From assembly GCA_002731275.1 (NCBI GenBank), contig PCBK01000136.1, positions 1-53,544 on the forward strand: a DNA stretch of 53,544 nucleotides, written 5' to 3'. This document shows, one piece after another, positions 43,775-46,968 of the stretch. A program made the translations under genes and the position numbers. Position 1 is the stretch's first letter; each line of letters opens with the position of its first letter. The stretch is from Deltaproteobacteria bacterium (GTDB lineage Bacteria; Myxococcota_C; UBA6777). The notes beneath the pieces were generated by a model. It was not told the origin of the DNA, ran no database searches, and saw only the letters and a program-made list of their open reading frames with translations.

Positions 43775-46700
43775 AAAAGAACAACCAAGAGCGCACGGTG
43801 GATGCCTTGGTGTCAGGCGATGATGAAGGACGTGGGACGCTGCGATAAGCCCTGGGGAGCCGCAATACAGGCTTGGATCCAGGGATCTCCGAATGGGGAA
43901 ACCCTCGCCACATGAATGTGGCAACGATCATCACGATCGAAGCAACCAGGAGAACGGAAACAACCCTGTATCCTGAGGAAAAGAAATCAACAGAGATTCC
44001 CGTACAAAGGGAACAGCCCAAACCATACACATGAAGCAAGTACGAGGCTGATGACTATCAGTCTTTTCCTTGTGAAAGATGGCAATCGTTGTGTGTATGG
44101 GGTTGTGGGAGATATGTGGAGCTTTTTGCCAAAAGCTCGGAGAGTCAAAAATGATACGGAGAGCCGAACTGTCTGGAATGGCAGATGAGACAAGGTGACA
44201 ATCCTGTAGGCGACCTCCCGCTCACTCTCTGACATATCATCCCAAGTAGCGCGAGCGATTGCGTGAATCAGGGAGGACCATCTTCCAAGGCTACATACGT
44301 CCTGACAACCGATAGCGAACAAGTACCGTGAGGGAAAGGTGAAAAGAACCCCTAACAGGGGAGTGAAACAGAACCTGAAACCGTGTGCTTACAATCAGTC
44401 GAAGCACTATGTATACCAAGTGTGACGGCGTGTCTTTTGGAAAGACGCCAGCGAATGATGGTCTGTGGCTCGGTTAAGCCGCGAGGTGGAGCCACAGCGA
44501 AAGCAAGTCCGAACAGGGCGATGTTCTTGGATAGGCAGTCTCGCTTATCCATATATAGAGAACATGTCACCGGCCATCGACCCGAAACCAGGTGATCTAC
44601 CCATGTCCAGGTTGAAGCTTCGGTCAAACGAAGTGGAGGACCGAACCGGTGCGTGTTGCAAGACGCTCGGATGAGGTGTGGATAGCGGTGAAATGCCAAT
44701 CAAACCTGGCGATAGCGGGATCTCCCCGAAATGTCCTTCAGGACAGCCTCAAAGAGATGTTCATCAACGTGAACATGGACTCTGGTAGAGGTAGAGCACT
44801 GTCTTCTGTCCCCGAAGTCAGCATCTCTCCTTTGTCGCTCTATGAGCGACAAAGAGACGGATACTGCTCGGGTTCACAGATCGCAAACTCCGAATGCTAC
44901 CAAGAAGACTTTGGGAGTTAGGCGTTGGGCGTCAAGTCCAACGCCAAAAGGGAAACAACCCAGACCGTCGGCTAAGGTCCCCAATTCTATATTCAGTGAA
45001 AAACGAAGTCGTACAAACGAAGACAGCAAGGAAGTTGGCTTGTAGGCAGCCACCTTTGAAAGAAAGCGTAATAGCTCACTTGCCGAGTTGGCGGCGCGGA
45101 AAATGTAACGGGACTCAAATATAGAACCGAAGCCACGGATCTGTTGCCACACACAACAGATGGTAGGGGAGCGTACCTGTCGCAGTGAAGGTCGACTGAA
45201 AAGACGACTGGAGTAACAGGTAGTGAGAAGCTGGTATGAGTAGCGTAAAAACATGTGAGAATCATGTTCGCCGAAACCCCAAGGTTTCCTGGGCAAGGTT
45301 GATCCACCCAGGGTAAGTCGGCCCCTAAGCTGAGGCTGAAAAGCGTAGGCGATGGGAAGCAGGTTGAGATTCCTGCACCACCAAGGAAGACTGTGAAGTG
45401 AGATAGAACGAAGTTAGGTACGCTGGCCTCGCGATGGAAAGAGGTTTAAGTCTGAAGGCGGACACTGTAGGAACAAACGCAGTGTCACCCAACGCTGAGA
45501 GATGATGAGCAAGCACGTCAGTGCGTAAGCAGCGGAGCCTCCACTTCCAAGAAAAGTATCGCATGGAGTCCCCTTGGTGACCGTACCGCAAACCAACACA
45601 GGTGGGGAGGGTGAGAAGCCTAAGGCGATGGAGAGAACTCTGGTTAAGGAATTCAGCAAATTGCATCCGTAACTTCGGGATAAGGATGGCCCCAAGATCA
45701 CCAAAGACGTCTTCACCTCTGCATATCAACACAGAGGGTGGGCGGGTGATGTCCGTGTGACGCATCGAGCATGCCGAGCACATTGGGGTGACACATACCA
45801 AGCGAGAGCGACTGTTTATCAAAAACACAGGACTCTGCGAAGTCGCAAGACGACGTATAGGGTCTGACGCCTGCCCGGTGCCGATCAGTGAACGCCAATG
45901 GTCCTTCGGGGCTTGCGGCCTAAGCCTCGGTAAACGGCGAGCGTACAACGCATAGAGGTCCGACTGTCTGGACGTCTTCCTTCGTAACTATAACGATCCT
46001 AAGGTAGCGAAATTCCTTGTCGGCTAAATACCGACCTGCACGAATGGCGTAACGACTCTCGCACTGTCTCAACCAGAGACTCCGTGAAATTGCAATGCCG
46101 GTGATGATGCCGGCGACCCGCGGCAAGACGGCACATTCCGTGAACCTTTACTACAACCTGATAGTGAAGTCACTCGTACGCCGCCTTCAACAGACCTCTC
46201 GCGAGGACGACTGAAGGCAAGGTGGGAGTGGGATGTCCATACATCCCTCGTCCATGAAAAACCACCAGGACATCGAGCGCTTCTCACTCGCAGTCGTCGA
46301 TCCGACTGGAGGACACTGTTTGGTGGGTAGTTTGATGGAAGTGATCGCCTCCCAAAATGTAACGGAGGCACACAAAGGTCCCCTCACGCTGTATACAAAC
46401 CAGCGATTGAGCGCAAAGGCATAAGGGGGCTTGACTGTGAGAGAGACATCTCAAACAGGGACGAAAGTCGGTCTTAGTGAACCAGTTGACCCACATGGGA
46501 GGGCAACTGCATATTGAAACAGGTATCCGGAAATACAAGGCCCATCTCCCCCAAGAGACCACATCCTGACGGGGAGGCTTGGTGCTTCATGTCGACTCAT
46601 CACATCCTGGAGCTGAAGCCGGTTCCAAGGGTACGGTTGAACGCCGTTGAAAGTGGTGTGAGTTGGAATCAGAACGTCGTGAGATTGTTCGTCGCCTATC

Positions 46701-46968
46701 TGCCGTGGGCGTAAGAGATTTGAGGTGCGCTGTCCCCAATACGAAAGGACCGGGATGGACATACCTCTGGTGTTCCTGTTGTCACGCCAGTGGCAGCGCA
46801 GGGTAGCCACGTATGGAATGGATAACCGCTGAAAGCATCTAAGTGGGAAGCCACCACCAAGATAAGATCTCTATGAGACCCCTTGAAGACCACGAGGTTG
46901 ATAGGCCCGGGATGTAAGCGCAGTAATGTGTTCAGTCTACGGGTACTAATCGGTCGAATGTTCTTTTC
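43775..46968 (+). rRNA. Divergent stand-alone 23S rRNA-like gene
   Basis: The whole length follows bacterial 23S order, from GCGCACGGTGGATGCC near the 5' end to GGTACTAATCGGTCGA at the 3' end. The ends pair as AAAAGAAC/GTTCTTTT (helix 1). Many stretches are canonical, such as GTACCGTGAGGGAAAGGTGA and AAGCGTAATAGCTCAC. It is about 3.19 kb, roughly 250 longer than usual, with expansion hairpins. Near-universal residues are altered or lost: GACGG-CACATT-CCGTG in place of GACGGAAAGACCCCGTG, A2451C, C2452A, A2602U, P-loop GG to AA, sarcin-ricin G2655A and G2661A, and loss of GUAGCGGCGAGCGAA. There is no linked 16S, tRNA or 5S. It is either a neofunctionalised 23S-like RNA or a decaying copy; conserved pairing favours the former. 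Numbering is E. coli, from memory. Confidence 0.9.

Follow-up and report, generated by a model that had tools for sequence, protein, structure and literature searches.

The window analyzed here, one whole 53,544-bp contig (C125) of a 10.75-Mb MAG, carries on its forward strand a full-length 23S-like RNA gene (43775–46969) in which the residues that serve translation are replaced, the fold is preserved, and the next gene encodes a Ro60-like protein. That this RNA is a neofunctionalized, translation-dead 23S paralog is well supported by the distribution of its changes. Taken as a whole, the locus is best explained by a duplicated 23S that was freed from translation and would now form a Ro-type RNP with the Ro60-like protein, a reading to which we give a probability of roughly one half.

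Anatomy and genomic setting of the 23S-like gene

The RNA matches the bacterial 23S model RF02541 from position 1 to 2925 (2187.9 bits, E = 0; the same model gives 2876.7 bits for E. coli 23S from rrlH), and its terminal helix, AAAAGAAC/GTTCTTTT, is intact. A preliminary description of this DNA had reported just such a full-length 23S architecture, standing alone and closed by a paired terminal helix, and both points hold: Rfam and tRNA scans detected no 16S, 5S, or tRNA beside the gene or anywhere in the window. The gene thus lacks the rrn operon linkage of a translating 23S; unlinked 23S genes exist, so this is not decisive.

The flanks, all on the same strand, retain features of an rRNA precursor. 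Upstream lies a boxA-like sequence, CGCTATTTGACAAC (43712–43725), identified from the sequence itself, which we take to resemble the boxA of rRNA antitermination. It abuts the 5′ arm, AGAAGAGCATGGT (43726–43738), of a precursor processing stem of the RNase III type, complementary at 13 of 13 positions, across 3234 nt, to the 3′ arm, ACCATGCTCTTCT (46973–46985), the two forming a perfect 13-bp inverted repeat. In a two-strand fold (–60.4 kcal/mol) this stem extends to a long helix that encloses the terminal helix, and a small hairpin (43743–43774; –14.8 kcal/mol by RNAfold) lies between the stem and the mature 5′ end. No sigma-70-type promoter scored above shuffled sequences, and between the RNA and the Ro60-like gene no terminator-like site was found on their strand.

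On sequence grounds the contig is part of the MAG: its tetranucleotide correlation with ten other MAG contigs (r = 0.87–0.97) matches that of those contigs among themselves (0.90–0.96), the corresponding values for genomes of the same family being 0.74–0.86, and one window protein has a 68% ortholog in a genome of that family (G003). Synteny around the orthologous DUF5722 gene in G003 is not preserved, so no empty site can be read there. A genome-wide search of the MAG found no second 23S and no 16S or 5S of any kind, and among the five genomes of the host phylum in the set compared (G000–G004), all of one family, the variant is the only 23S detectable, the other four having none. That the genome might hold only this 23S had been named in the preliminary description as grounds for abandoning a new function; this is formally true of the MAG, yet it carries no information, since 16S and 5S are missing from the MAG as well and none of the five phylum MAGs has a normal 23S. 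The absence of a normal operon is most likely the usual MAG assembly gap and says nothing about copy number.

Altered translation centers in a preserved fold

We compared the RNA with the 23S of E. coli and with normal 23S sequences from diverse lineages; the final set comprised 16 normals with 951 positions invariant in all 16. One sequence (L040) was left out since its domains I–III did not align, and two (L036 and L049) were left out for insertions. The first of these two (G013:C25) is a normal 23S apart from an insertion of ∼0.5 kb in H69, near E. coli position 1923, which is probably an intron or intervening sequence. The 23S-like RNA is changed at 113 of the 951 invariant positions, compared with 4 to 42 for the normals when each was left out in turn. 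Translation centers are changed at 61 of 182 invariant positions versus 52 of 769 elsewhere (odds ratio, 7; Fisher p = 3e-19), a p value that is only descriptive because the region list was drawn from general ribosome knowledge after the first alignment had been seen.

In the PTC, the strand corresponding to 2053–2069, GACGGCACATTCCGTG (46127–46142), is one base shorter and has A2058–C2064 replaced: one base is lost around 2058, and 2059, 2061, 2063, and 2064 are changed. The preliminary description had this altered sequence right but closed it one base short, at 46141. The A2451C, C2452A, and G2447A changes that it read in CCGGAAATACAAGG (46527–46540) and the A2602U change in GAGATTGTTC (46681–46690) are borne out by alignment to E. 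coli and the diverse normals, in which G2446A and C2601U accompany them. The loss is wider than was then described. It extends to the P loop (46330–46346), where C2248U, U2249G, G2251A, G2252A, and G2256A convert the C2248–G2256 pair to U–A; to the A loop (46633–46647; C2551U, U2554A, and U2555A, with G2553 kept); to the sarcin-ricin loop (SRL; 46734–46754; G2655A and G2661A, with A2660 kept); to the GTPase-associated center (45034–45051; A1067G, G1068U, and A1070G); to the L1 stalk (14 of 32 changed); and to the H69 region (45983–45996), where stem pairs 1907–1923 and 1908–1922 are altered with pairing kept, the latter on both sides, and the loop is kept. Further changed stretches are 2423–2440, 2496–2502, 2572–2573, 2583–2584, and 2608–2610, with deletions at 2439–2440, 2502, and 2572–2573. 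Universal residues of a translating 23S are therefore missing from the PTC, P loop, A loop, and SRL alike.

Outside the translation centers, changed invariant positions cluster mainly in domain I, at 250–272, where in the cmscan alignment the conserved GUAGCGGCGAGCGAA motif (E. coli ∼240–258) is replaced by a short hairpin (43996–44012). The same domain contains a 56-nt insertion (44032–44087) that folds into an extended hairpin.

The fold has fared very differently from these residues. Counted on the covariance-model alignment of the whole RNA, 733 of 787 scorable consensus pairs (93.1%) are standard versus 482 ± 13.5 expected when changes at the observed rates fall on the two sides independently of each other; together with the full-length RF02541 match, this marks the molecule as bacterial LSU rRNA by descent. 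Because much of this pairing could predate the duplication, a stricter test was confined to pairs touched at universally invariant positions. Twenty-four of the 30 pairs in which a universally invariant side has changed still pair, as do all eight pairs, invariant in 16 of 16 normals, that have changed on both sides: 564–577, 1363–1368, 1908–1922, 2064–2446 (in the PTC), 2248–2256 (in the P-loop stem), 2399–2417, 2525–2538, and 2846–2870. Some of these double changes could themselves predate the duplication. In domain V, 65 of 278 invariant positions are changed (23%), yet only 7 of 148 pairs are broken, where neutral change would, by our own estimate, have broken about one quarter. Mean identity to the normals differs by domain, with z scores of –4.1 (I), –3.6 (II), –0.6 (III), –3.1 (IV), –9.1 (V), and +1.8 (VI).

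Helix breakage is thus not proportional to divergence, and decay does not run across all domains. Random substitutions with broken helices, which the preliminary description had set down as the mark of a pseudogene, are not seen in the 23S-like RNA itself, and its proposal of a neofunctionalized 23S-like RNA that cannot form peptide bonds in the usual manner gains support: the loss sits in the translation centers, whereas the helices, domains III and VI, the processing stem, and the boxA-like site persist. Since domain VI and the helices should not escape neutral decay, the structure has most likely been under selection after the loss of translation, an argument that assumes that the host's ancestral 23S, whose normal descendant is absent from the MAG, had the usual universal residues. 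On this evidence we hold it to be quite probable that a translation-dead RNA is being maintained by selection.

The Ro60-like neighbor and the search for relatives

The gene next door, absent from the preliminary description, begins on the same strand 65 bp beyond the end of the RNA (46969 to the start codon at 47035) and encodes P0001, a 582-aa protein (47035–48783) with a vWA MIDAS (DASGSM). Aligned by hhalign to a profile of five annotated TROVE-type proteins, P0001 scores 99.1% (E = 4e-19) over residues 121–561; it also matches DUF7788 (E = 8e-8) and, in tblastn, annotated TROVE proteins (E = 4e-8), and a profile that includes P0001 and known TROVE members matches the structures of Ro60 and Deinococcus Rsr. 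The Pfam TROVE model alone stays below threshold (11.4 bits; cut-off, 23). With its TROVE region followed by a vWA MIDAS, P0001 is, as judged from these profile comparisons, a divergent member of the TROVE/Ro60 family. A hairpin predicted by RNAfold on the same strand (47005–47028) would cover the GGAGGT Shine-Dalgarno sequence of the gene and is possibly autoregulatory for it.

TROVE genes are rare, occurring in 10 of 386 genomes; P0001 is encoded by the only one in the host genome, and four genomes of the same family have neither a TROVE gene nor the 23S-like RNA. In the nine other TROVE-bearing genomes, no 23S-like gene lies close to the TROVE locus, and a pattern search of IMG/VR returned no relatives of P0001. 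On plasmid pTHEOS01 of Thermus oshimai (L092:4494–10450), a TROVE gene precedes genes for a vWA and for a tubulin-like protein. The 23S-like RNA resembles the Y RNA of a Ro-RNP in being encoded beside a Ro60-type gene; by sequence and structure it falls outside the Y RNA family, RF02541 being the sole Rfam match in the window at gathering thresholds.

The altered A2602 in its conserved context recurs in none of 385 other genomes, and a stricter form of the pattern, run against 84,980 species genomes, found two other loci only, a rarity that speaks against chance. One (L059) is a 23S fragment that is normal but for one change, which may be an error, and it was rejected as a relative. The other (L058), from a Chloroflexota MAG, was rejected as an ortholog: it is a separately divergent 23S, with no TROVE gene in the DNA fetched. 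This 23S (L058:462–3830, JAKPJZ010000195.1) is complete, flanked by 5S on both sides, and the only one of its MAG; it carries A2602G, G2252U, C1914G, U1915G, and U2584A, swapped pairs at 2455–2496 and 2456–2495, and changes at 57 of the 951 invariant positions, and by sequence it may be a further, independent case of a 23S that is impaired in translation or very divergent. Matches to the A2602-mutated pattern in IMG/VR (L052–L057) proved not to be 23S: they lie in a hairpin between phage genes that looks like helix 93. This hairpin, AGAACGTCGTGAGACTGTTC, is followed by GACGGAAAGCC or a similar sequence and is conserved between contigs (L052:4530–4549, L053:3196–3215, L054:3968–3987, L055:11–30, L056:4614–4633, and L057:8727–8746). 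Two viral scans contained no P-loop or 2058-deletion variants, and phage and plasmid records, judged on identity alone, offered only 23S at ∼70%. Every 23S that we met is similar to the 23S-like RNA only in part (∼64–77% over longer aligned pieces). No ortholog appeared in the genome, species-genome, or viral scans, and no report of such an RNA was found in the papers searched.

A proposed Ro-type RNP, its rivals, and known systems

Could the gene be a pseudogene, a duplicated 23S copy decaying neutrally? Its standing alone without 16S or 5S, the changes at universal residues, and the lack of an ortholog would fit, but its helices are about as intact as those of the normals, eight universal pairs are doubly compensated, domain V has diverged while domains III and VI have not, the processing stem is intact, and broken pairs in domain V are far fewer than the one quarter estimated for decay, all of which makes this improbable. 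The conserved scaffold domains and processing signals could also belong to the RNA of a specialized ribosome, one whose 50S still works but with changed catalysis; we think this very improbable given that the P loop, A loop, A2451, A2602, GTPase center, and SRL are altered together. All of these are universal residues, and at several of them one substitution is known to kill E. coli or to harm it severely. An artifact of assembly, binning, or sequencing, conceivable for a window that is a single 53.5-kb MAG contig, is no more credible: the composition agrees with that of the MAG, sequencing error cannot yield compensated helix changes, and the RNA is not a chimera of the 23S sequences compared because its similarity to them is partial. 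Least credible is that an unusual lineage has this gene as its one genuine 23S; it is the sole 23S in the MAG, but that MAG is without 16S and 5S and no phylum MAG has a normal 23S, which points to operons that were most likely unassembled, and the residues lost here are present in all normal 23S compared.

A different matter is whether the neighbor is coincidental. The RNA could be translation dead and be selected for something that does not involve the Ro60-like protein, such as regulating 50S supply or forming a dead 50S-like particle in which ribosomal proteins or assembly factors are sequestered. All of the structural evidence fits this equally well, and the nine other TROVE genomes provide no second TROVE–23S pair. 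Against it stand the position of the genome's sole TROVE gene, from a rare family, 65 bp away in the same orientation with nothing terminator-like on that strand between, and the functional link already known between Rsr and 23S rRNA (PMC4030889). We consider an unrelated role rather unlikely.

Under the Ro-type RNP reading, a duplication would have carried a 23S gene, together with its precursor-processing stem and some of its leader, out of an rrn operon, and the copy would then have been released from translation. If expressed, the RNA should still fold like large-subunit RNA and, because domains III and VI are conserved, probably binds part of the ribosomal proteins; because of the residues changed, it would be unable to hold tRNA, catalyze peptide transfer, or activate translational GTPases. 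It is most likely cotranscribed with the downstream TROVE gene and may be bound by the TROVE protein, a partnership that, argued by analogy from one locus in one MAG, has about an even chance of being real. In the resulting RNP the RNA would mimic 23S, much as part of the YrlA Y RNA mimics tRNA; we favor this because a 23S mimic beside a Ro60-type gene fits the known Rsr/Y RNA pattern. Its likeliest job would lie in quality control of large-subunit RNA, with the RNA titrating or guiding either the Ro60-like protein or factors whose targets are immature or damaged 23S, although this specific role, argued by analogy, is doubtful. The fullest statement, that an rRNA has been exapted as a giant noncoding RNA, complete, ribosomal protein binding, translation dead, and the dedicated partner of a Ro60-type protein, is offered tentatively.

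rRNA is generally regarded as locked into translation, and a full-length rRNA under structural selection without a translation function, as the sequence of this single locus suggests, would to our knowledge be the first case of a whole rRNA gaining a nontranslational role. If true, it would constitute a natural experiment that separates scaffold from catalyst, the one selected and the translation centers let go, and would reveal which parts of 23S serve only folding and protein binding. It would also mean that Ro60 biology takes in a whole ribosomal RNA as well as small mimic RNAs.

The RNA shares full-length homology, helices, and a processing stem with bacterial 23S rRNA (RF02541) but differs from it in the replaced residues of the PTC, P loop, A loop, SRL, GTPase center, and L1 stalk. 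The giant OLE, GOLLD, and ROOL noncoding RNAs of bacteria and phages are likewise very long and structured and sometimes have a dedicated protein; unlike the 23S-like RNA, they are not rRNA derived. Among 23S paralogs within one genome, a 2009 survey of 184 species found a maximal divergence of 4.04% (115 positions) (PMC2672173). Divergent paralogs such as Thermoanaerobacter tengcongensis rrnC (PMC2672173) are also extra 23S copies with compensated differences, but the positions that differ are for the most part variable ones and such a copy could still function, whereas here universal catalytic residues are hit and the gene lies outside an operon. Similar in arrangement are Rsr/Ro60 and the Y RNAs (Deinococcus Y RNA and Salmonella YrlA/YrlB), in which a TROVE gene likewise lies beside a structured noncoding RNA gene. 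Rsr, the bacterial Ro60, assists 23S maturation, an activity from which Y RNA sequesters it (PMC4030889); in Deinococcus, a Y RNA tethers Rsr to PNPase, and the Y RNA genes of Salmonella neighbor rsr, one of their products, YrlA, carrying a tRNA-like domain (PMC7790460). Y RNAs are small, whereas the RNA described here, at 3.2 kb, derives from an entire 23S; as YrlA mimics one piece of the translation machinery, the tRNA, the 23S-like RNA may be its 23S-shaped counterpart.
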